This document shows, one piece after another, positions 11,701 through 62,354 of a stretch of 64,000 bases of DNA. The stretch is from Heterohyrax brucei. Its lineage: Eukaryota; Chordata; Mammalia; Hyracoidea; Procaviidae. Under the pieces are notes generated by a model. It worked only from the letters and a program-made list of their open reading frames with translations. It did not search any database and was not told the DNA's origin. The number at the start of each line of letters is the position of its first letter. The stretch's first letter is position 1. Made by a program: the position numbers and the translations under genes. The DNA is taken from the NCBI GenBank assembly GCA_028571685.1, contig CM053141.1:134320833-134384832 (forward strand), given 5' to 3'.

Positions 11701-14109
11701 AAATTTTCTGCCCTAAAGAGATGGGGCCATGGACTACACCTCTAAGAAATGTGGTTCTCAGTCTTTGTTTTTTGTTTGGTATGAGACCCACCTGGAATGT
11801 TTGCTTCAAATTTAGATTTCTAGTCTTTTCTCAGCCTAACTAAATAGAACTCTGGAAACAGGCCCCTGACATCTAAACTTGAAGCCACCATCCAAACTGC
11901 TTCTGAAGCAGAAACTCAAGGCCCATGCTGCCTGGCTTAGACTTAGGCTTCCTGCCTTCACTGGTTGTAGTGAGGATCAGGTGTATCCATGGATGGCTCT
12001 GCAAAAATCCATCTCTGCTCCTAGAAAAATCATTCAGACCACACGATAATGGTAAGTAATGACATTTTTTGTGTGTGTTTGAAGGAATGGATTTTATCTG
12101 AAAGAAAACTGTGATGCATGGAAGTGACCAGTAATTTCTAGGCCTTCACCTCAGCAATGCTCCCCCCCACTTCCTTTCATTAGCAGTCCTCTCTTCATGC
12201 TCTGGTGATGCTTTTTGTTTACCTGGGGCAACTGGTTTTTAATTGATTTTTTAATAAAGGTATTTCTTGCTCTCTTTCACTCTGATTAAGAACCATAGCA
12301 TGATCTCATCAGGCCTGGACAAGTATTGATGGGCTGGGGTATCATGGGGCTAATAAAGAGGGTTATCCAGTATTTTTCAGTGACACATAAAAACTCCCTC
12401 ATGAAAGACACGGCAGGCAGAGCGTAATATAAATGCCACTCTAGAAACAGCGGTGTTATGGTGCATACAGTCAGACATCAGTGATTGCATTAATACATTA
12501 AGACAGGCCTTCCCCAGGGAGAAAGTGGCGGTGAGTGGACACTTGGGGTGAGAAGGAAGGCAACAGAGAAGCAACTGCACAACAAAGCAAGCCCTGTAGA
12601 CCTCCAGGTTTTTACAGATAATGCTGCAGCAGTCTGATAAAGTGTTTCAGCTGAGTAGAAGAAGAGGCCCTTAATCCAACTCTTCATTACCCCTCTTCAC
12701 CTATTCCTTCCTCCAAAATACTATTTAAAATATTTCAGAAGGGATGAGGTGTTGAAAGCCGAGATTGCTTTTGGATTTCATGTCTTTCATTCCTTAAATC
12801 TTTAAAGTCACTGTTATTCTCTCTACTTCTTGGATTACCGAGGGAAAGAAGAACTGAAGGTCTGTGAGAGAAATCGTTGGGGCATTCCCAGCTGTTGCTT
12901 TGTATTTCATTTCGTTAACAAGTATTAGTTGGTGCAGAGGAAGAAAACGGCCATGGCCATGTGTTACTGCAAAGAGACCCTGCTGTGCCATGAAATGACT
13001 GGTTTTGCAGAGTCCAGGAAACCCTACTGGACCAAAAGGCAGGAGACACTATAAGGCTTTTTCCCAGGTTAAAAATGTGGTTATTCCATGATATCATGTG
13101 CTGAGTAACTCTCCTGGGGCCCCAGGAAATAGAAAATATTTAAGTCCATCAACTTCCCTTCTTGGAAAAGATTAGTTGAAGGACACAAACAGGCACACAC
13201 ACTCACACAACACTCAGATTTAAAAGACACAAGAATTTAATAGCCCTTCCAAAGCATATATTTTGAAAATTATTTTTACTGATTCATGTGTGAGGAATCA
13301 ATTAAGAAAAACTAAGGACAATTGAACATAATTTCCTTTTTATGATTTACCTCTACTCTTTCATGGTCTGTTGACTTCGTTACTTGCAGTGGATTCTGTG
13401 TTGTAGGTAGGGACAAGTGCCGGTAGAATTTGAACTGACACCATTAATGTAATCCCATTTGTACATACAGGGTCTAAGGCCTATGAAGATTGAGGATGTT
13501 TGTATGTGAGGGTGTGTATGTGTGCTTTCCTGCACAATTGGGGTCCTACTAGAAGTCATGTGAAGGAGTGTGAATTTTATCCTGTGTATAATCAGTAGCA
13601 TGTCATGCAATCCTACCTATGGCATCTCATTCACTCATTCACTTAACACATTATTATCATGTGCATCCTCCTCATGTCTCAGTTTCCCACTGACTCGTCA
13701 CTTGGCTGGGCTTTTTGCCATGGTTGTTCTTGTTGCAACTAGAAGCCTGGAAATTACTTGTGAGAATAACTTCCAAATAGAGAAGTATAAAATGAAAATG
13801 ACTTGGAGTCCCAGATAATGAATGATCTGATTACAAAAAGCCATTGACAAACACGACATCCTCTTCAAGCAATTGATCCCTCCTGATGGCACATCCACAG
13901 CCAGTGAGTCTAGCAATGCTCTGTTGTGTTTCACTGAAAATTAGCCACTTAGATTAGACCTTTCTTCCTAGTCTGCCTAAGTTGAGAAGCTCCACCAGAC
14001 CCTATCTACCATGCATGACCTGCTGGCGTTTGAAATATTAGTGGCATAGCTTCCAGCAGCACAGCACACATACACCACCGCAGCACAACCAAGTGACAGA
14101 CAGGTAGTG
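11701..14109. other. Unique DNA; possible weak MER5-like trace at 11745-11850
   Basis: GTGGTTCTCAGTCTTTG followed by ATGAGACCCACCTGGAATG hints at a decayed MER5. The rest has no recognisable gene or repeat. Short frames on both strands have no motifs. Confidence 0.4.
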
Positions 14110-18331: not shown

Positions 18332-19765
18332 TGGAGAAATGCAAGTCAAAACCATAATGAGATGCCACCTCACCTGGCATTACTATTATGAATCAAAAAA
18401 CCAGAAAATAACAGATGTTAGAGAGGCTAAGGGGAGCCTGGGACTGCTGCTGGGAAGACAAAAGGGTACAAACGTTCTGGAAAATGATACGACACTTCCT
18501 CAGAAAGTTAGAAATAGAAATATCATATGATCCAGAAATTCCACTCATAAGAATATATCCTAGAGAAATAAGAGCCATCACATTAATAGACAAGTACACC
18601 TATTCATATAGCAGCACTGTTCACAACAGCAAAAAGAGAGAAACAGCCTAGATGCCCAGCAACAGATGAATGGACAAATAAATCATGGTACATGCACACG
18701 ATAGAGTGCTACACAACCATAAAAATCAATGACGAATCTGTGAAGCATCTCACAACGTGGATGAATCTGGCGGGCATTATGCCAAGTGAAATCAGTCAAT
18801 TATAAAAGAACAAATATTGAATGAGACCATTACTATAAAAATTCAGAAAAAGGTTTACACACAAAAGAAAAAACCTTTAGTGGTTATGAGGTACGGGAGA
18901 GGTGGGGAGGGAAAACCATTCAACAGACAATAGTTAAGTGGTATCTTTGGTGAAGGGTAAGACAAGACCCAGTACTGAGGAAGGCAGCACAATGTGTGCA
19001 AGCCAAGGTGATGGACACCCCATAGATGCATCCAAACACCCTGAGGGACCTAATTACTGGGCTGAGGGCTGAGGGCTGAGGAGACTGTGGTCTTAACTCA
19101 ACTGTTATAACAGTTTTTAAAGAAAATGTTCTACCTTCTACTTTGATGAGTAGTGTCAGGGGTCTTAAAAGCCTGTGAGCAGCCATCTACGATACTCCAC
19201 TGATCTAACCCCTTTGGAAACAAGAGAGAATGAAGCAAAATAAAGACACAGGGTAAAGTTCAAAGACCCAATGGATCACAGGTACCACGGCCTCCACCAG
19301 ACTGAGTCCAGTACAACTAAAGGTTACCTGGCTCCCAGCATGAACTGCTCAGACAGGGATCGCAATAGAGGGCCCCTGACAGAGCTGCAAAAACAAGCAA
19401 GACAAAATTCTAACTCACAGAAAAAGACCAAACTCACTGCCCTGACAGAGGCTCAAGAAATCCTGAGAGTATGGCTCCTGGACACCTTTTTGGTTTAGTA
19501 ATGAAGTCACTCTTGAAGTTCACGCTTCAGCCAAAGATTAGACTGACCCATAAAGCAAAATGAGGCTGCAGGTACACATCAGATCAGCAGCAAAGGCTAG
19601 AAGACAAAGACGGACAAGAAAGCTGGGAATAGAGGACCCAAGATCAAGAAGGGTGAGCGTTGACATGTTCTAAAGTTTTTAACCAACGCCATTAAACAAT
19701 ATGTGTATTAACATTTAAATGAGAAGCTAGTTTGTTCTGTAAACTTTCATCTAAAATATAATTTT
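18332..19765 (+). mobile_element. 5'-truncated afrotherian L1 with long 3' UTR
   Basis: Sense L1. The first ~460 bp encode the extreme C-terminal part of ORF2: text such as ATATCATATGATCCAGAAAT and CAACAGATGAATGGACAAAT corresponds to the PFDPAIPLL and PT-EEWI region. The rest is a roughly 900-bp 3' UTR including CTGAGGGCTGAGGGCTGAGG near 19060, TTAAAAGCCTG and CTGACAGAGGCTCAAGAAATCC. The 3' UTR is shared with 25821-26600 and, in antisense, with 30945-31378. It differs from the 3' UTRs of the 31-kb and 43-kb L1s, so at least two L1 lineages with different 3' ends are present. ORF2 here is interrupted by stops. Confidence 0.8.
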
Positions 19766-32394: not shown

Positions 32395-35300
32395 TTATAG
32401 TAAGGGGTCTTGTACAATATTTGGCCTTCTGTCGCTAACTACTTTCACTCAACATAATGTCCTCCAGTTCAAACCATGTTATGGGATGTTTCCTGAAATC
32501 ATTGCTGTTATTTATCATTGCATAGTGTTCCACTGAGTATATATACCATAGTTTACCTATCCATTCCTCTGTTGTAGGGCATCTGGGTTTATTCCATCTT
32601 TTTGCTATTGTGGACTGTGCTTCAATAAACATTTGTATGCATGTATCAGTTGGTGTGAACGGCCTTGATTCTGTGGGATATATTCCAAGCAGTGGAATCA
32701 CTGGGTCAAATGGTATATCTATATCCATTTTTTAAAAGGAGCACCAGATTGCTTTCCAAAGAGGTTGCACCATTTTGCAATCCCACCAACAGTGTAGGAG
32801 AGTTCCAATTTCTCCATAACCTCTCCAACATTTGTTGTTTTGCAATTTTTGGATCATGGTCAATCTTGTTGGGGTGAGGTGGTATCTCATTGTAGTTTTG
32901 ATCTGAATTTCTTTAATAGCTAATGATCATGAGCATGTCCACATGTGTTTTTTGGCTGTCTGGATCTCCTCTTTAGAGAAGTGTCTGTCCTTCTCCTTTG
33001 CCCATCACTTAATTGGATGATTTATCTTTTTCTTATTGATATTTTGTAGTACCTTATATATTATGGAGATCAGGCATTGGTCTGACATACAGTTGCCAAA
33101 TATTTTTTCCCATTCTGTAGGTGGTCTTTTAATTCTATTAATAAAGTCTTTGAATGAGCAAAAGTGTTTGATTCTTAATAGTTCCCATTTATTTATTTTC
33201 TCTTCTGATGATTGTGGTTTGTTTGACAGATTCTGAAGTCTGTCTACGTTGTGTATTAAAACTTCCTTTGTTTTTCCTACTTTTTCTTGGATGAGGTTTA
33301 TTGTTTTAGATTTAATATTTAGGTCTTTTACCTAGTTTGAGATGGTTTTTGTGTAAGGTGTGAGACATGGGTCTTGTTTCAATGTATTGGACATGGGTCT
33401 TGTTTCAATGTATTGCAGGTAGACATCCAATTTTGCCGGTACCATTTGTTGAAGCAATTGTTTTTACCCCAGTTGAATGTCTTAGGGCCTTTGTCAAATA
33501 TCAGCTGTTCATAGGCAGATGATTCTGTTCCATTGATCTGTCTGTCTCTTTTTGTACCAGTACCTGGCTGTTTCTACTACTGTGACAGTGTAATAGGTTC
33601 TGAAACTGGGTAATGAGAGGCCTCCCAGTGTGTTCTTCTTCTTTAGTTGTGCTTTACTTATCTGGGGCTTCTTCCCTTTCCAGACAAAGTTGGTAATTTG
33701 TTTCTCCATCTCATTAAAAAATGTCTCTGGAACTTGTATCGGGATTGCATTATATAAGTAGATTGCTTTGGGTAAAGTAGACATTGTGACAACGTTAAGT
33801 CTTCCTGTCCATGAGGAGGGTAGGTTTCTCCATTTATGTAAATTTCTCTTAGTTTCTTGTAGCAAGGACTTGTAGTTCTCTTTGTAAAGGTCTGTTATTT
33901 TTCTGGTTAGATTTATTTCTAGGTACTTTATCTTCCTAGGAGCTATATTAAATGGTATTGACTTGGTGATTTCTTTCTTAATAATCTCATTGTTAGTCTA
34001 AAGGAATCCTACTGATTTACTTATGTTTATCTTGTATCCTGAGACTTTACTGAACTCTTCTATCAATCTTAGTAGTTTACTTATGGATTCTTTAGGATTC
34101 CCTGCACGTACAATCATATCATCTGCAGATAGGGAGATTTTTACTTCTTTTTTTGCTGATGGAGATGCCCTTTATTTCTTGGTCTTGTCTAATTGCTCTG
34201 GCTAGAACTTCTAGTAAAATATTGAATAGGAGCAGTGAGAGTGGGCATCCTTGTCTAGTTCTTGTTCTCAAGGCAAACTATTTCAATCTCTCTCCATTCA
34301 GGATGATGTAGGCAGTTGGCTTTGTATAAATGGCCCTTATTGCATTGAGGAATTGGCTGTCTATTCCTGTTTTGCTGAGAGTTTTCAGCACGAATGGGTA
34401 TTAGACTTCATCAAATGCCTTTTCTTCATCAATAAACAAGATCAGGTGACTCTTGTCTTTTGTGGTATTTAAGTGGTTGATCACATTAATTGTTTTTTCT
34501 GATGTTGAACCAGCCTTTCATCCCTGGTATGAATCCAGCTTGGTCATGATGGATTATTTTTTCAATATGTTGTTATTTTCTACTGGGAAGAATTTTGTTG
34601 AAGATTTTTGCATCTAGATTCAGGAGTGATATCAGTCTGTAGTTCTCCTTTTCAGTTGGATCTTTCCCCAGCTTTGGTATCAGGGTTATGCTGGCTTCAT
34701 AGAATGCATTTGAGAGTATTCCATCCCTTTCTATACTGTGAAATAGTCTCAGTTGTATTGGAGACAACTCTTCTCTAAAAGCTTGGTGGAATTCTGCAGT
34801 GAAGCCATCTGGGCCCAGGCTTTTTTTGGTTGGCAGTTTTCTGATGATCTTTTCAAACTCTTCCTTTGTGATGGGTTTATTAAGTTGTTCTGCTTTACCT
34901 CATGATAATTTTGGTAGGTGATATGAATCAAGGAATTTGTCCATTTCCTCTAGGTTTTCAAATTTGTTAGAGTACAGTCTTTCATAATATTCTGTTATGA
35001 CATTTTTTATTTCTGTTGGATCTGTTGTGACAACCCTCCTCTCATTTCTAATTTGGGTTACTTGTTTCTTTTTCTGTTTTTCGTTAGTAAGTTTAGTCAA
35101 CGGTTTGTCAACTTTGTTGATCTTTTCAAGAAACCAGCTTTTGGTCTTTTCAATTTTTTCAATTTTTCTTTTATTCTCTAATATCTTTAGTTTTCCTCTA
35201 ATCTTTATGATCTGTTTTCTTCTGGTGCCTGAGGGGTTCCTCTGTTGTTCTCTCTCTCTAGTTGTTCAAGCTGTAGGGGTTAGTTCTTTGACTTGGTTTC

Positions 35301-36225
35301 TTTCTTCCTTCCAGATGTGTGTATTGATGGAGATAAACTGACCTCTGAGCTTTGGCTGTATCCCACAGGTTCTGGTAGGAAGTGTTTTCATTCTCATTGG
35401 AATCCATAAATTTCTTTATTTCATCCTTGATTTCTTCTATAACCCATGGCTTTTTGAGCAAGATGTTGTTCAGTTTCCATGAGTTCCACTTTCTGTCTAT
35501 GTTTTTCCTGCTATTGATTTTAACTTTCATGGCTTTGTGATCTGAGAAGATGCTTTGCAGTAATTCAATGGTATGGATTTTGTTGAGAATTGCTTTATGT
35601 CCTAACATATAGTCTATTCTGGAGAATGTTCTATGTGCACTGGAGAAGAAGGTGTAGTTGTCTGCTGATGGATAGAAAGTTCTGTATATGTCAGTGAGGT
35701 CTAGTTGGTTAATTGTAGCAATAAGGTCTTCTGTGTCTTTACTGACCTTTTTTCAGATGATCTGTCCAATATTGAGAGTGGAGTGTTGAAGTCTCCCCCT
35801 ATTATTGTGGAGTGATCTATCTAATTTTTGAGTGTAGTTGGTGTTTCTTTGACATATTCAGGTGCTCTAATATTAGGTGTATAAATATCTAATATTGTTA
35901 AGTCCTGTTTGTGTACTGAACCTTTCAGCAATAATTAGTGTCCATCCTTGTGCATAATGGTGGATTTTACATTAAAATCGATTTTATCTGAAATTAGAAT
36001 TGCCACACCTGCTCTTCTTTGTTCATTGTTAGCTTGATATATGTTCTTCCATCCTTCAATTTTCAGTTTGTTCATATCTTTAGGTCTAAGGTGAGTTTCT
36101 TGTAGGCAACATATAGTTGGGTCATGTCTTTTGATCCAAGATGTCACTCAATGTTTCTTTACTGGAGCATGCAGTCCATTCACATTCAATGTAATTAGTG
36201 ATAGGTATGTGTTCGGTGCTGCCAT
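32395..36225 (-). pseudogene. L1 ORF2 (endonuclease-reverse transcriptase), copy A, broken
   Basis: ORF2 encodes the L1 endonuclease and reverse transcriptase that nick target DNA and copy L1 RNA into it. The start ATG at 36225 begins MAAPNTYLSLITLNVNGLHA, followed by a TGA at codon 26 (36150-36148), then WIKRHDPTICCLQETHLRPK with the catalytic Glu43 kept. The RT YADD-like motif reads SADD rather than FADD near 34120. The C-terminal part ([19 protein letters not shown], 32435-32728) is readable. It breaks into many short frames, so it cannot make a full protein. A 26-bp tandem duplication (33364-33389 repeated at 33390-33415) adds one of the indels. The total span of 3,831 bp is close to the usual 1,275-codon L1 ORF2. 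Confidence 0.9.
33364..33415. repeat. 26-bp tandem duplication within L1 ORF2 copy A
   Basis: GACATGGGTCTTGTTTCAAT plus GTATTG occurs twice in a row. Copy B has a single unit at the matching place (near 45185), so the duplication is private to copy A. Confidence 0.9.
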
Positions 36226-36659
36226 TGTGATATGTTTAGTTTTGTGTTGATGTTTTCTCCGTTGTTCTGTTTCTCTCTTGTTCTTCTTTTGAGACATTCT
36301 TCTTTGTGAGTTGATTTTTCACCTTTTTCAGGGTTGGTTCTGTGGTTGTTGAGACTCCTTTATTACATTTCTTGGTATGGTATATTGCATCTTTGTTGTG
36401 TTTTACGGCTGCCCCATCATCCTGCTTAATAAACTATGTGTAAACCCAATTTTAATTACTACTAGTCTTGTCAACTTCCTCCCATCTGGAAGAACTATAA
36501 CAATTGTAGTAAATCCCTCTTTTTAATATGTTGACATCATAGTTTTCCTGATATGATCACTGGATTATTTCTTTCACTATTATAGCTTTGAGTGAGTTTG
36601 GAGCCTTCCCTAACTGAGTAGGATTCTGGATGATGTGTTCTTCTACAGTATAAAGTTAG

Positions 36660-42880: not shown

Positions 42881-43080
42881 AAACTTCTATCCCGATATTA
42901 ATGTTAAGGAAACGGTTTAAGAAAGTAGTCTCTTAAAAACTACTGAATTAAATTGACTCAACAGAAAGATATGCTTCAGACTGGCATTTCTTTTTTAAAA
43001 AATGCATTCAACCTGAAGTTTATACAAACGACTGTTTAAAATGTATGTACAGTATAAAGAGCAATGATACAACGGATACC

Positions 43081-43167
43081 TGTGTACCTAGAACAGACAA
43101 AAACTCGCAGCCGTCTAGTTGACCTGTGTACCTAGAACAGACAAAAACTCAGAGCCGTCCAGTTGAT
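43081..43167. repeat. 44-bp direct duplication at the edge of a SINE
   Basis: TGTGTACCTAGAACAGACAA and AAACTC-AGCCGTC-AGTTGA occur twice (43081 and 43125) with three differences. The unit covers the SINE's target-site duplication and the start of its tail, so it arose after the SINE inserted. Confidence 0.85.
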
Positions 43168-44127
43168 TTTGATGCAGAACAACCTTACAGGATCTGCCCC
43201 ATAGGGTTTCTTTCTTTTTTAATTTTTATTTGACATAACTGAGTGAAAATGTACATTCACATATAAATTTACATGCCCCCCTATATGCAGCTTCCACTGC
43301 TCTCCCTGTCCGGTGACAGCACACTATTCTTCTCTGCTCCATATATGTCGCATCCTCCCAACAGCCTCCTTTCCCCTCCTGTCGGTCCATTCCCCTTCCT
43401 CCAGCCAGAGGTCAGCAAGATGATATCCTATATATGTATAGAACCATAAAGTGCTTCCAATATATGGTCACTCTGCTTTGCCAAGTCCAATCCATTCCTG
43501 TCCAAAGAGTGGACCTTTGTTATAATTTATGGGAAAGGGCAGCATCAGGGCAGGGGGCAATGCTCTCAGAGGAACCCCAAAACCACTGGACCATCAATTG
43601 AGGTCTTTTAGTGGAGATCTCATGATGCACCTCTTTATTCTTGTGTTGCCAGTGAGACTCCTCTCTGTGAGCTCCATCGTGGCTATCACTGGTGGCGGCC
43701 AGGCAACATCCGGTTCTTCCGGTCCCAAGTCAATGTAGGCACCCACTCTTGTGGGTCTCTCCATCTTCTCGATTGTCTTTACCGCATGTCATTTTGGTCC
43801 TCGGTGAGCATCCGTTCCTGTTGAGTTGGGACCATTTGCTGTGTCCTCGGATGGCAGCTTGGCAGCTTCTAAGACCCCAGACGCCACTCACCAATGTGGA
43901 GTGCAGACAGCTCTCTTAGCAAAATGCTAGTTGTGCCAATTGGCCTGGAATTCGCCTAAGAGCATGGTCCCCCACCCCCTGCCCCAGCTACTCTATCCTT
44001 GCAGTATTGAGTTAAGATGGAAGGAGTACTCAAGCTATGCTGAAGTCCACTTAATGTTGTTCTTGTTCCTAATGTGTGCTGTCACCGCTTTCTCCCAACT
44101 AGATTTCTAGTAACTATCTAAACTAAA

Positions 44128-44158
44128 CCCTCCCCCCTCACCCTCCCACCCTCCCCTC
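44128..44158 (-). other. G-rich tract in the L1 3' UTR (copy B)
   Basis: Plus-strand text CCCTCCCCCCTCACCCTCCC followed by ACCCTCCCC. In L1 orientation this gives six G runs of at least three separated by 1-3 bases, a strong quadruplex pattern, conserved in position with copy A. Confidence 0.8.
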
Positions 44159-44212
44159 TCTTGCAGCTGTCAAAGACTCTTTTCTTCTATACACAAGTCT
44201 GTTTTTGAAATC

Positions 44213-47200
44213 TTATCGTAGAGGTCTCATACAGTATTTGTCCTTTTGTCGCTGACTACTTTCACTCAACATAATGTCTTCCAGTTGAAACCAGGTTAGG
44301 AGATGTTTCCTGGAATCATCGCTATTCTTTATCATTGTGTATTGCTCCATTGAGTATATGTACCACAGTTTACCTATCCATTCTTCTATTGTTGGGCATC
44401 TGGGTTGATTCCACCTTTTTGCTATTGTGGACTGTGCCGCGATGAACATTCTGGTGCATGTGTCCATTGGTGTGAAAGGCCTTGAATCTGTAGGATATAT
44501 TCCAAGTAGTGGAATTACAGGGTCAAATGGTATATCAATATCCATTTTTTTAAGGAAGGGCCAGATTGCCTTCCAAAGAGGCTGGACCATTTTGCAACCC
44601 CACCAACAGTGTAGGAGGGTTCCACTTTCTCCACAGGCTCTCCAGCATTTGTTGTTTTGTGTTTTCTGGATCATGGCCAATCTTGTTGGGGTGAGATGGT
44701 ATCTCATTGTTGTCTTGATTTGAATTTCTTTAATAACTAAAGATCATGAACATGTCCGCATGTGTTTTTTGGCTGCCTGGATCTCCTCTTTAGTGAAGTG
44801 TCTGTCCATCTCCTTTGCCCATCGCTTAATTGGATGGTTTATCTTCTTGTTGTTGATATTTTGTAGTATCTTATAGATTATGGAGATCAGGCGTCGGTCT
44901 GACATAGAGTTGCCAAATATTTTTTCCCATTCTGTGGGTGTTCTTTTAATTCTATTAATAAAGTCTTTGGGTGAGCAAAAGTGTTTGATTCTTAATAGTT
45001 CCCATTTATCTATTTTCTCTTCTGTTGATTGAGGTTTCTTTGACAGATTTTGGAGTCTGTCCTCATTGTGTATTAAAACTTCCATTGTTGTTCCTACCTT
45101 TCCTTGGATGAGCTTTATCGTTTTAGGTTTGATATTTAGGTCTTTTATCCAGTTGGAGTTGATTTTTGTATAAGGTGTAAGATACGGATCTTGATTCAGT
45201 TTATTGCAGATGGATAACCAATTTTGTCAGCACGATTTGTTGAAGATACTGTTTTTACCCCAGTTTAATGTCTTAGGGCCTTTGTTGAATATCAACTGTT
45301 TATAGGCAGATGGTGTCATCTCTGGGGTCTCAATTCTGTTCCATTGATTCATCTGTCTGTTCTTGTACCAGTGCCAGGCTGCTTTGACCACTGTGGCAGT
45401 GTAGTATGTTCTAAGGTGAGGTAATGAGAGGCCTCCCAGTGTGTTCTTCTTCTTTAGTAGTACCATACTTATCCGGGGCTTCTTCCCTTTCCAAACAAAA
45501 TTGGTGATTTGTTTCTCCATCTCATTAAAAAATGATGCTGGAACTTGTATTGGGATTGCGCTGTATAAATAAATTGCTTTGGATAAAATAGACATTTTCA
45601 CAATGTTAAGTCTTCCTATCCATGAGCAGGGTAAGTTTTTCCATTTATCTAAGTCTCTCTTAGTTTCTTGTAGTAAGGGCTTGTAGTTCTCTTTGTAAAG
45701 GTCTGTTGTTCCTCTGGTTAGATTAATTCCTAGGTACTTTATCTTCTTAGGGGCTATCATAAATGGTATTGATTTAATAATTTCCTCCTTAACAGTCTCG
45801 TTGATGGTGTAAAGGAAACCTACTGATTTACTTATGTTTATCTTGTATACTGAGACTTTGCTGAACTCTTCTATAAGTTTGAGTAGCTTACTTATAGATT
45901 CCTTGGGGTTCTCTGCATATACAATCATATCATCTGCGAACAGGGAGATTTTAACTTCCTCTTTCCTGATGCAGATGCCCTTTATTTCTTCATCTTGTCG
46001 AATTGCTCTGGCTAGAACTTCTAGCACAATGTTGAATAGGAGAAGTGAGAGTGGGCATCCTTGTCTAGTTCCTGATCTCAGGGGAAAGTCTTTCAGTCTC
46101 TCTCCATTCAGGATGATGTGGGCAATTGGCTTTGTATAAATGGCCCTTATTGTGTTGAGGAATTTGCCGTCTATGCCCATTTTGCTAAGAGTTTTTAGCA
46201 TGAACAGGTGTTGGACTTTATCAAATGCCTTTTCGGCATCAATGGACAAAATCAGGTGATCTTTGTCTTTTGTGTTATTTATGTGGTTAATCACATTAAT
46301 TGTTTTCCTGATGTTGAACCAGCCTTGCATCCCTGGTATGAATCTCACTTGGTCATGATGGATTATTTTCTTGATATGTTGTTGTATTCTGTTGGCCAGA
46401 ATTTTGTTGAAGATTTTTGCATCTAGGTTCATGAGTGATATTGGTCTATAGTTCTCTGTCTTTGTTGGATGTTTCCCTGGCTTAGGTATCAGAGTTATAC
46501 TGGCTTCATAGAATGAGTTTGGGAGTACTCCATCCCTTTCTATACTGTGAAATAGTCTCAATAGTATTGGGGATAACTCTTCTCTAAATGCTTGGTAGAA
46601 TTCTGCCGTGAAGCCATCTGGGCCCGGACTTTTTTTGGTTGGCAGTATTTTGATGACCTTTTCAATCTCTTCCTTTGTGATGGGTTTATTAAGTTGTTCT
46701 GCTTCACGTTGTGATAATTTGGGTAGGTGGTATGAGTCAAGGAATTTGTCCATTTCCCCTAGGTTTTCAAATTTGTTAGAGTACAGTCTTTCATAGTATT
46801 CTGTTATGATAGTTTTGATTTCTGTTTCATCTGTGGTGACCACTCCCCTCTCATTTCTAATTTGGGTTATTTGTTTCCTTTCCTGCTTTTCTTTAGTAAG
46901 TTTAGCCAGTGGTTTATCAATTTTGTTGATCTTTTCAAAAAACCAGCTTTTGGTCTTTTCAATTTTTTCAATTGTTTTTCTATTCTCTAATTCATTTAGC
47001 TCTGCTCTAATCTTTATGATCTCATTTCTTCTGGTGCCCGAGGGGTTCCTCTGTTGTTCTCTTTCTACTTGTTCAAGCTGTAGAGTTAGTTCCTTCATTT
47101 GGTTTCTTTCTTCCTTCCAGATGTGTGCATTTATGGAGATAAACAGACCTCTGAGCACTGCTTTGGCTGTATCCCATAGGTTCTGGTACGAAGTGTTTTC

Positions 47201-48060
47201 GTTCTCATTGGAATCCATGAATTTCTTTAATTCATCCTTGATTTCCTCTATAACCCATGTTTTTTTGAGCAAGATGTTGTTCAGTTTCCAAGAGTTCCAC
47301 TTTCTATCTATGTTTTTTCTGCTATTGATTTCAACTTTTATGGCTTTATGATCTGAGAAGATGCTCTGCAGTAATTCAATGGTATGAATTTTGTTGAGCA
47401 TTGCATTATGGCCTATCACGTGGTCAATTCTGAAGAATGTTCCATGTGCACTGGAGAAGAAGGTGTAGTTGTCTGCTGATGGGTGGAAAGTTCTGTATAT
47501 ATCAATGAGGTTTAGTTGGTTAATTGTGTCAATGAGGTCTTCTGTATCTTTACTGAGCTTTATTCTAGATGATCTGTCTAGTAATGAGAGTGGAGTGTTA
47601 AAGTCTCCCACTATTATTGTGGAGTCATCTAACTCTCTTTTGAGCGTAGTCAGTGTTTCTTCAACATATTCAGGCGCTCTGACATTGAAGCCAAGTGCCG
47701 TCTGACATTAGGTGCATGAATATTTAATATAGTTAAGTCTTGCTTGTGTACTGAACCTTTCAGCAATAAATAGTGTCCATCTTTGTCCACGATGGTGGAT
47801 TTGACATTAAAATTGATTTTGTCTGAGATTAGAATTGCTACCCCTGCTCTTCTTTGTTCATTGTTAGCTTGATATATATTCTTCCATCCTTTAATTTTCA
47901 GTTTGTTCCTGTCTTTAGATCTCAAGTGAGTTTTTTGTAGACAACATATGGATGGGTCATGTCTTTTGATCCAAGATGACACTCAGTGTCTCTTTACTGG
48001 AGCATTCAGTCCATTCACATTCAATGTAATTATTGACAGGTATGTCTTCACTGCTGCCAT
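44213..48060 (-). pseudogene. L1 ORF2 (endonuclease-reverse transcriptase), copy B, nearly open
   Basis: It encodes the L1 nicking endonuclease (N-terminal), reverse transcriptase (centre) and Cys-rich C-terminus. The start ATG at 48060 gives MAAVKTYLSIITLNVNGLNA. Landmarks: [22 protein letters not shown] and SDHKAI (endonuclease); [51 protein letters not shown] at 45929-45940 (RT active site); and [20 protein letters not shown] near the C-terminus. The span minus a 23-nt insertion is 1,275 codons, the usual L1 length. Breaks: TGA at codon 26; a 14-nt SINE-tail insertion plus 9-nt duplication at 47678-47709; TGA at codon 937 (45229-45227); TGA at about codon 1098 (44746-44744). The endonuclease Glu43 is Lys (CLQKTHL), expected to block nicking. 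Confidence 0.95.
47678..47709 (-). mobile_element. 14-nt SINE-tail micro-insertion with 9-bp TSD in L1 ORF2
   Basis: The plus strand reads TCTGACATT (47678-47686), GAAGCCAAGTGCCG (47687-47700), TCTGACATT (47701-47709). In L1 orientation the inserted 14 nt are CGGCACTTGGCTTC, the 3' tail of the SINE subfamily seen at 62231 (GACGGCACTTGGCTTGG). Removing insert plus one TSD copy restores the frame (NIHAPNVR then [16 protein letters not shown]). It is a very short retrotransposition-like footprint. Confidence 0.8.
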
Positions 48061-48481
48061 TGTGATATTTTTATTTTTATGTTGAGGTTTTCTCTGTTGT
48101 TCTTATTAGTCTGTTCTGGGACACTCTTTTTTGTGAGTTGATTTTTCACCTTTTTCAGAGCTGGTTTTATAGTTGTTGAGACTCGTGTGTTAGATTTCTT
48201 GAAATGGTATGATACATCTTTGTTGTGCTTTACAGTTGCCCCTATGAACCCCCTTAATAAACTATTTATAAACCCAATTTTAATTACTACCAGTGTTGTC
48301 ATCTTCCTCTCCATCTGGAAGGACTGTAATGACTGTAGTACATCCCTCTTTTATTATGATGACACCATAGTTTTCATGATGATCACTGGATTGCTTCTTT
48401 CCAAATCAAAGCTGTGATTTACTTCGGAGCCTTCCCTAAATGAGTAGAGTATTGTGTAGTGTGTCGTTCTAAAATATAAAG

Positions 48482-49440
48482 TTAGTGGTTTCGTTCTTCT
48501 AAGCCAAAGCCAAGAACTTCTTTCAGTATTTCTTGTAGTTTGGGTTTGGTTTTTACAAAGTCTCTGAGTTTCTGTTTATCTGGGAATGTCTTAATTTCAT
48601 TTTCATATTTGAAAGATAGTTTTGCAGGATATATAATTCTTGGTTGGAAGTTCTTCTCCTTCAAGACTTTGAATGTGTCGTGCCACTGTCTCCGTGCCAG
48701 CATGGTTTCTGCTGAGAAATCTGACGAGAGCCTACAGGGTTTCCCTCAGAATGTTAGCTTTGCCTTGAGTCTTGCTGCCTTTAAGAGTTGCTGCTTATGT
48801 TTCATTTTGTTAAGCTTGATTATAATATATCTTGGAGTCTTTCTTTTTTAGATCTATATTGGGTGGCGTACGATATGCATCTGAGATGTCTATAGTCTCT
48901 TCCTTCATGATTTCTGGGAAGTTTTCTTTCAGTAGCTCAGCAACAATACTCTGTGTTCTCAGATGTCTGCCCCTGTTCAGGGACTCCAATTAATCGAAGG
49001 TTGTTCCTCTTAATAGAGTCCCACATGCTTCTTAATGTTTCTTCATTTTTCTTGTTTATTTTTTCTGATTTCTGCTCATAGACGCTGGCCTCAGTAGCTC
49101 TGTCTTCCGAGTCAGAAATTCTTTTTTCCATTTGTTCCATTCTGTTTTCTTGGCTTTGCATGGAAGTTTCTATGTCTTTGATTTTCTTCTTGATCTGTTG
49201 GATTTCAGAGTACTGGTGTTCCATCAGATCGAACAACTTGCTTAATTTTTCATTTTGTTCTGCTGCATTTTGTATAAGGTCTAGAAGGACTCTGTATATA
49301 ATCAATTTGTATTCACTTCCTGATGCTTTCATAAAAGTTTCTTCATCTGGAAAACTCCTTGGTTGCTTTGTTTGGGAGCCTTCTGAAGCCATGAGTGATT
49401 GCTTGTATGCCGCAATTGTCTGTTGCTTTTTGGGTCCCAT
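48482..49440 (-). pseudogene. L1 ORF1 (RNA-binding chaperone), copy B, broken
   Basis: The ATG at 49440 starts MGPKKQQTIAAYKQSLMASE. A coiled-coil segment follows (YSEIQQIKKKIKDIETSMQS, ENRMEQMEKRISDSEDRATE), then the RRM start SIKRNNLRLIGVPEQGQ (to about 48960), and the C-terminal domain GKPCRLSSDFSAETMLARRQ, LKEKNFQPRIIYPAKLSFKY (to 48482). In known L1s the protein trimerises and coats L1 RNA. Breaks: a 2-nt loss near 48950 (copy A keeps them), one extra A in the A run near 48846, and a TGA in the TF-GKP position (copy A has Arg). Without the indels the ORF would be 320 codons including stop. Confidence 0.93.
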
Positions 49441-50441
49441 GTGAGTATATAGAGGCTGGAAGAGGTACTGTGAGGATGGATTGCAAATGTTTCTCTAGGC
49501 TCTCTTCAAATGTAAAGCAAAAGGTATCTGACCAGTTCACAAGTCAGTTAGGTTTTCAGGTGTAGAGGTCCCTCTTCTCATCTGACAAAGTAAGCGCCAC
49601 TGTATCCAACCCCAGATGATAACAAACTAGTTCAGAATACAGCAATGCTACTGCCCTGATGGCCTCTGCTGACAGGGCCTAGCCTTAGCCAACACTGCGT
49701 CGAGTACTGGTTTTGTGATAGAAAAGCGCTCTCCTGTGGGCAGGCTCTGGCTCCCAAGCTAAGAATTAGGTCCAGCTGCGGCCACCGTATCCAAGATGGC
49801 GTCCTCCACACAGGCAGCAGACAGAGGGGCTAAAGGTGCCGAGAGGCAGTGATTCCTCTGCTTCTGTTGCAGGGCCCCCAAATGCAGGCAGCACTGTGCA
49901 AAATCACCACTTTTCTGGTGGAGAAGCGCTGTCCCGTTTGCAGGCACTGGCTCCCAGTCTAAGAACAAGGTCCCACTAAAATCTCGGTACCAACATGGAG
50001 TCCCGCACCCTCACCGTTGAGCTCCGCACAAATCCCACTGAGGCAGCTACAAAACGAAAGGCTCAAAGTGTCCAGATTAACAGAGTCCCGAGCCTGGCTC
50101 TCAGAATATGGGAATTTCGCCTGCCTATCCCCCCAGCAGCGCGTCTGAGTCCAGCCGCCAGGCAAGACCCAGCTCCGCCCGCCAGCCGAGATCGAGGGAA
50201 AAAAAAATTCAAACTGGTGCGTTTACCTTCCGTCTGTGAGAGCCAGGGCTAGCCAGGAGCGGGAGTCAGCGAAAGAGAGTAGGTTTTTCGCTGAGTGGTA
50301 TGAAGTCCCAATTAACAGCTCTGTGCTGTGTCCTGAGGCTGATTAGGTGATCAGAAGGCTCTGTTTGATTGTCAATTCAGGTCTTGGTTTCCAGAGGGAT
50401 GTAAGGAGACGTGGGCTTAGTCTGCCATCTTGACTCCGCCC
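49441..50441 (-). promoter_or_regulatory. L1 5' UTR, copy B, with two monomer-like units
   Basis: Two related blocks (plus-strand 49672-49805 and 49871-50000) are offset by about 200 bp. Both hold AGGGCC-start text, AGAAAAGCGCT / AGAAGCGCTGTC, TGGCTCCCA, CTAAGAA-AGGTCC and end in ATCCAAGATGGCGTCC / ACCAACATGGAGTCC. Repeated promoter monomers are known from mouse L1; here only two survive. The region is GC-richer than the rest of the element. Confidence 0.65.
50424..50431 (-). promoter_or_regulatory. YY1-like site at the L1 5' end (copy B)
   Basis: In L1 orientation the 5' end reads GGCGGAGTCAAGATGGCAGA, with AAGATGGC about 11 bases from the start. Human L1 has a YY1 site in nearly the same place (CAAGATGGCCG). 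YY1 is known to fix the human L1 start site, so a similar role is inferred here. Confidence 0.6.
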
Positions 50442-51782: not shown

Positions 51783-51828
51783 GGAAAGCCAAGTGCCGTC
51801 GAGTCGGATCCGACTCATGGCGACCCTA
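51783..51828 (-). mobile_element. Strongly 5'-truncated SINE (about 45 bp)
   Basis: Antisense tail only: AAAGCCAAGTGCCGTCGAG, TCGGATCCGACTCATGGCGA, CCCTAG. It inserts in the old L1. Same tail subfamily as 62231. It has no SINE head, and no clear TSD was found. Confidence 0.75.
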
Positions 51829-52417
51829 GTTTGTAGTTTTTGTGTCTTATTTAAGAAATTCTTCTCTAATCCTAGGTTATGGATAAATACAATCTCTCAT
51901 ATCGTCTTCTAAGAGTTTTCTAACTTCACCTTGCATATTTAAGTCTTTAATCCATCTGGAATTGATTTTCATGTGTGGCTTAAGGTACAGACCAAATTTT
52001 ATTTTATTTTTCTGTATGGAGCACCATTCACTCAGAAGTGCATGAAATACAATGGCCACTATCATAAACCAAGTATCCATATATGAAGACTAATTTCCCC
52101 CACCAAAGCTCTCTATTTTGTTCTTCTGATTAATTTATCTATCCCTAAACTGATTTCATACTACATCGATTATTATACTTTCACTGTAAATGGTGATATC
52201 TAATAAATTAAACTCCCCTTTGGACCCTCGAGGTTCCATTTAAGGGTTAGAATCAGCTTATCATTTTCATGGGGGAAAAATAAAAACACTCTTTGGGATT
52301 TTTATTGGAATTGTAGTGAATCTAAATATCAATTTGAGGAAGACTGAGACCCTAATAATGGCATTGAAATTTTCAATCCATGAACATAGTGTGTGTTGTG
52401 ATTTAAGCCTTCCCTAA

Positions 52418-52436
52418 GACGGCACTTGGCTTGGCC
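52418..52436 (+). mobile_element. Solo SINE tail (about 17-19 nt)
   Basis: GACGGCACTTGGCTTGG is present with no SINE body before it, next to CCCTAA. It adjoins the TSD of the following SINE. It may be an earlier tail-only insertion used as a later target. Confidence 0.5.
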
Positions 52437-52590
52437 AATATATTTTGGGAAACCCTGGTGTGTAGTGGGTTAAGTGCAGTTCAAATCCACCAGGCACTCC
52501 TTGAATACTCTGGGGGTCAGTTCTACCCTGGTCCTTAGGGTCGCCATGAGTCAAATCCGACTCAATGGCACTTGACTGGCTAATATATTT
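52433..52590 (+). mobile_element. AfroSINE (+) with 13-bp TSD
   Basis: Flanked by GGCCAATATATTT (52433-52445) and GGCTAATATATTT (52578-52590). The body is head-shortened: AAACCCTGGTGTGTAGTGG, GTTCAAATCCACCAGGCACT, CCTTGAATACTCTGGGGGTC, GGTCGCCATGAGTCAAATCC. Its CCTTGAATACTCT text marks the same young subfamily as 62231. Confidence 0.85.
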
Positions 52591-61289: not shown

Positions 61290-61600
61290 TTAATGTCTGT
61301 ATGTGTGTATGCGTACGTGTGTAGCCAAGTGTGGAGTGTGTGTGTGTGCTTGTGTGTGTGTGTGTGTGTGCGCGCACACGCCTGCGCGTGTGTGTGCCTG
61401 TGCGTGTGTGCCTGCGCATGTGTGTGCCTGTGCGTGTGTGTGCCTGTGTGTGTGTGTACCTGTGCGTGTGTGTGCCTGTGTGTGTGTGTGCCTGTGCATG
61501 TGTGTGCCTGTGTCTGTGTGCCTGTGCGTGTGTGTGCCTGTGCATGTGTGTGCCTGTGCATGTGGGTGTAGCCAGGTGCGGAATATCTGTGGGTGTGTGT
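61290..61600. repeat. TG-rich minisatellite
   Basis: A (TG)n core followed by about a dozen units close to GTGTGTGCCTGTGC, between 61391 and 61565. GTGTAGCCA-GTG occurs at both edges (61320 and 61566). Long frames on both strands here (up to 182 codons) are products of the repeat. Confidence 0.95.
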
Positions 61601-62218: not shown

Positions 62219-62354
62219 ATAACAGAACACAAGGTCAGCAGTTCAAATCCACCAGGCGCTCCTTGAATACTCTAGAGGGCAGTTCTACTCTGGCCTCTAG
62301 GGTCGCCATGAGTCGGATCCGACTCGACGGCACTTGGCTTGGCTAATAGAACAC
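62219..62354 (+). mobile_element. Young-subfamily SINE (+), 5'-truncated, with imperfect TSD
   Basis: Body 62231-62342: AAGGTCAGCAGTTCAAATCC, CTCCTTGAATACTCTAGAGG, GGTCGCCATGAGTCGGATCC, GACTCGACGGCACTTGGCTT. It lacks the tRNA-like start. It keeps several CpGs, so it looks young. TSDs are ATAACAGAACAC and CTAATAGAACAC. It is the window's best source copy for the tail found in the micro-insertion at 47687. Confidence 0.85.

Follow-up and report, generated by a model that had tools for sequence, protein, structure and literature searches.

How did 14 nucleotides that resemble the very end of a SINE come to lie between two copies of a 9-bp repeat inside an L1 element? The locus belongs to a stretch of 64,000 nucleotides of the Heterohyrax brucei genome (hereafter the window), and an earlier reading of the letters alone had proposed a retrotransposed SINE tail that disrupts L1 ORF2. 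We consider that the insert most probably arose when a SINE RNA, or the RNA of its partner LINE, underwent target-primed reverse transcription that halted prematurely, after about 14-16 nt (probability of roughly 0.8).

Structure of the insertion site

Positions 47678-47709 read TCTGACATT-GAAGCCAAGTGCCG-TCTGACATT, an arrangement found at this place only in the window, even when up to three mismatches are allowed. The minus strand is the sense strand for the L1 and the SINE tail alike, and on it the site reads AATGTCAGA-CGGCACTTGGCTTC-AATGTCAGA or, with its flanks, CACCT-AATGTCAGA-CGGCACTTGGCTTC-AATGTCAGA-GCGCC (Table 1). The 9-bp duplication is exact and abuts the core on both sides, and the original prediction of a SINE-tail-like 14-mer within such a duplication is thereby confirmed. 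In reverse complement the core agrees with the SINE ends at 51785, 52420 and 62328 except for a single mismatch, which in every case is the last base; the claimed identity with the final bases of the SINE thus holds at 13 of 14 positions and fails at the final C, which is absent from the SINE copies. What is retained is the extreme 3' end of the element, the 5' part being missing and no internal SINE piece being present, and the GA that precedes the insert, inside the duplication, is SINE sequence as well. The core ends in CTTGGCTTC rather than in the poly(A) of an L1-mobilised insertion, and an insertion driven by L1 was ruled out, there being no run of A before the duplication.

Table 1 Features at the insertion site, SINE copies and L1 copies in the window (blank cells, no entry)
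Feature	Position	Strand	Basis
Target-site duplication (9 bp), 5' copy; reads AATGTCAGA in SINE sense	47701..47709	-	
Inserted 14 nt, CGGCACTTGGCTTC, 13/14 identical to SINE 3' end	47687..47700	-	
Target-site duplication (9 bp), 3' copy	47678..47686	-	
Host L1 copy, stretch aligning to the second L1 copy	43222..50437	-	
Part of second L1 copy (paralogue), lacking the 23 nt	35391..36373	-	blastn and alignment
5'-truncated SINE of the same subfamily as the insert, duplication AACAGAACAC/AATAGAACAC	62231..62343	+	
Perfect palindrome GAGTCGGATCCGACTC, predicted hairpin, immediately 5' to the tail	62310..62325	+	
Short (~44 nt) 5'-truncated SINE copy, no clear target duplication	51785..51829	-	
Second detached tail fragment, GACGGCACTTGGCTTGGCC, 18-19 nt	52418..52436	+	
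Longer SINE copy (near 52449), AATATATTT duplications	52437..52590	+	

The only other copy of this L1 found in the window by blastn is 86% identical to the host copy over ca. 1 kb, and its gap in the alignment across the site is exactly 23 nt, i.e., the insert plus one copy of the duplication. Because it is a paralogue, this empty copy gives no date for the event.

Weight of the evidence against chance

In the window, 46 direct repeats of 9 bp or more flank a core of 8-60 nt, 17 of them within a GT-rich array near 61.4 kb, as against a mean of 18 (range 10-25) in 20 simulated first-order Markov sequences of window length. The 9-bp repeat by itself, common by chance, was therefore rejected as proof, and the case is the conjunction of a repeat with a SINE-end core, together with the paralogue. 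A 13/14 match to the young SINE end is shown by a single core among the 46. Repeats of at least 9 bp that exactly abut a 14-nt core are seen at three loci: the present site, the GT array and, at 33.4 kb, a tandem duplication. The array itself (61320-61587) has an 8-bp register and is the origin of many direct repeats in the controls. At 19374, an 11-bp direct repeat, another of the 46, surrounds a 55-nt core with a 12/14 match to an older SINE-tail string.

An unrelated length change of 23 nt that merely looks like a SINE tail could be imagined, given that the two L1 copies differ elsewhere too, among others by 23 nt at 43936 and by 20 nt at 45313 (host copy coordinates). On inspection neither of these differences resembles a SINE tail. 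We regard such a coincidence as highly improbable, since 13 of 14 positions agree with one fixed SINE end, matches to the core with at most two mismatches number four in the window (itself included) where 0.23 would be expected from shuffles, and the repeat abuts the core without a base to spare. A scan of the window with a single 9-mer, allowing up to one mismatch, yielded no further tail-only case that was convincing on inspection, and the matches at 13700 and 3036 look fortuitous to the eye. A 22-nt SINE end had no exact match in collections of viral, bacterial and archaeal contigs, among which the genome of the window may be missing.

SINE copies of the same subfamily

The subfamily, which may be AfroSINE, has tails of the CTTGG type, and its readable duplications in the window (62231 and the copy near 52449) start with AA. 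The ca. 44-nt piece at 51785 is identical over 44 nt to the copy at 62231, and the longer copy near 52449 has, by inspection, an internal deletion. Of the three copies with a body, two (62231 and 51785) lack their 5' part, and truncation is therefore common in the subfamily. Duplications were scanned at 24 loci, namely the insertion site and 23 of 39 SINE matches: nine, the present site among them, have a duplication at p <= 0.055 against shuffled flanks, whereas chance predicts about one, and at the 15 remaining loci there is none at that level. The usable duplications at the other SINE loci are roughly 9-16 bp long, leaving out 63818, where the 20-nt match with several mismatches is probably SINE aligned against SINE.

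Afrotherian SINEs go with RTE LINEs and are counted among the SINE/LINE pairs with common 3' ends (PMC5322556 and PMC3747384). As such pairs share their 3' ends (PMC3747384), the template of the insert may have been the partner RTE LINE rather than the SINE.

The original prediction had also listed a matching SINE end at 52418. The sequence there is indeed SINE tail, but as the end of a longer copy it had to be rejected: it is a detached fragment directly upstream of the 5' duplication of the neighbouring SINE, which has its own AATATATTT duplication. Around the fragment no duplication was found, the best repeat near the junctions being 2 nt and the best anywhere in its flanks 5 nt, a length reached by 84% of shuffles. 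This may be what is left after a deletion, and the same has to be weighed for the insert itself, i.e., a longer SINE would have been inserted and a later deletion would have taken its body along with any portion at the 3' side of the left duplication. The GA common to the left duplication and the SINE (CTCGA/CGGC) could have served as deletion microhomology, and as 9 bp is among the shorter lengths in the window, a longer duplication may have been trimmed. However, the deletion would have had to end precisely at the foot of the palindrome and to leave a duplication of ordinary length, and 5' truncation is in any case frequent in those copies of the subfamily that have a body, so that we judge a secondary deletion unlikely, though the least so of the alternatives to a premature stop.

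The target site

Gilbert et al. (2008) reportedly analysed the target sites of elephant RTE1_LA/AfroSINE. At 47678-47709 the junction is T/A, with three T at positions -14 to -9 and the letters ATATTC, the same as at 62231. Duplications of the Bov-B LINE, as PMC13295347 describes them, start at TA (first base A) with T's about ten bases upstream ("Tn-TA"), a signature reported there from squamates and cattle, and the present site is alike in starting with A after T and in its upstream T's. The Sauria SINE duplications of that paper differ in that their first base is T, and the duplication studied here accordingly begins as in the LINEs, not the SINEs. Among seven sites chosen by hand from the nine better-supported ones (without 50961 and 63818, and with start points in part fixed manually), a TA junction is present at four, at least three T at five and both at four, against a background of 1.9% for both. 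The T's at 63.65 kb belong to the tail of a neighbouring SINE. Compatibility of the target with the RTE Tn-TA pattern is thus suggestive only. For human 5'-truncated trans insertions (Alu, SVA and mRNA copies), PMC2912911 reports no association with duplications of 9 bp or less; these data, which come from the L1 system and not from RTE, do not favour a premature stop at a site with a 9-bp duplication.

A palindrome at the common boundary

The insert and the fragment at 52418 start at the same SINE base, just 3' of the palindrome, and in both GA precedes CGGC. The palindrome, GAGTCG-GATC-CGACTC, is predicted to form a hairpin, at the foot of which copying could have stopped; that reverse transcriptase stalled there after some 14-16 nt is only a hypothesis. 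The predicted folds are only mildly stronger than those of shuffled sequences (z = -2.36 for 116 nt and -1.58 for 48 nt). Moreover, GGC, within the copied tail, has a predicted pairing probability of at least 0.97 in both folds and CTTGG is largely paired in the 48-nt fold; since part of the copied tail is itself predicted to pair, nothing compels the stop to fall exactly at the palindrome. The fragment at 52418 backs the common boundary and not the mechanism, as it has no duplication of its own.

Truncation points of Alu insertions coincide with stem-loops, and 15.1% of the truncations have at least two shared bases at the 5' break (PMC4666360). A bolder proposal is that the hairpin acts as a built-in barrier at which a fixed share of reverse transcription would be aborted, always at one and the same base. 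This we hold to be doubtful, and slightly more so because part of the copied tail is predicted to pair. If it were true, tail-only micro-insertions of 14-20 nt with a common 5' boundary should recur and would constitute an unannotated group of germline indels wherever a genome has the SINE and an RTE partner.

Proposed course of events

The sequence of the site, its agreement with the SINE end, the absence of the insertion from the paralogue and the location of the palindrome are observed; the enzyme, the nick, the stall and the way in which the ends were joined are inferred, as follows. RNA of the young SINE subfamily, or of an RTE LINE sharing its end, would have been used on this L1 copy after an endonuclease nick between T and AATGTCAGA. 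Reverse transcription would then have started in the CTTGG-type tail and come to a halt after ca. 14-16 nt, where the hairpin has its foot. The short cDNA may have been joined to the displaced end of the target (...CAGA), possibly aided by the shared GA, and fill-in would have duplicated the 9 bp. That the hairpin caused the stop is held with less confidence than the premature target-primed insertion itself, and against this account stands the fact that the window offers one clear case only with a duplication.

Short templated fillers are known in general from the repair of double-strand breaks. The site could therefore be read as a staggered break whose filling gave the 9-bp repeat, a scrap of SINE DNA or RNA having served as filler, and the frequency of 9-bp repeats by chance speaks for such a reading. 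Yet a filler need not consist of the terminal SINE bases in the order in which reverse transcription copies a tail, and we find break repair quite improbable, ranking it below a secondary deletion and above coincidence.

Comparison with known truncated insertions

The suggestion of an extreme 5'-truncated retrotransposition stands as the best reading, with the paralogue lacking the 23 nt, although extreme 5' truncation as such is already documented. 5'-truncated Alu insertions, as PMC4666360 describes them, resemble the present case in truncation at the 5' side, in duplications, in occasional shared bases at the 5' break and in breakpoints at stem-loops (here a predicted one). They differ in using the L1 machinery and a poly(A) tail, whereas here ca. 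14 nt were copied from a CTTGG-type tail without poly(A). The shortest Alu insertion, that of SERPINC1 (6 Alu nt and 40 A; PMC4859970), also consists of hardly more than copied tail. There, however, the target duplication is given as N/A, a 1.4-kb deletion is involved and the event is visible through its poly(A); the insert at 47687 is shorter overall. A poly(T) stretch in NF1, possibly a severely truncated Alu, L1 or processed pseudogene in the reading of its authors (PMC3219598), is likewise tail-only, but is ca. 120 bp long, L1 endonuclease-mediated and situated in a gene whose splicing it affects. By analogy, the insert at 47687 would be the same kind of event as these tail-dominated insertions, with a tail that is not poly(A) and is for that reason hard to see. 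Among the matches listed in a search of literature titles, none concerned tail-only RTE-SINE insertions, a weak indication given that subscription papers were thinly covered.

A wider, hidden class of frameshift mutagens may exist; here the idea rests on one duplication-flanked case. If such scraps recur, a share of the small insertions scored as random indels would be products of retrotransposition, and their number would measure how often reverse transcription is aborted just after initiation, an outcome that ordinary repeat annotation is likely to miss.

ORF2 of the host L1 copy

ORF2, on the minus strand, shifts frame at the insert, running in one frame to ...NIHAP and then continuing in another. 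The claim that the insertion breaks ORF2 is thus correct in that the frame is lost at the site, but three in-frame stops are present besides it, one upstream (RH*VS) and two downstream (KSC*QN and TCS*SL). The insertion is one of at least four ORF2 lesions; on account of the three stops the death of the element is not creditable to it, and no functional consequence is to be drawn from this locus alone, as the copy has other stops anyway. As to other small repeats in and near the two L1 copies, the tandem duplication at 33376-33406 (26-bp period) lies inside the second L1 copy and is absent from the 47-kb copy, and a 44-bp unit that occurs twice in tandem at 43078-43166 (93% matches) overlaps a short minus-strand SINE-like match at 43143-43210.
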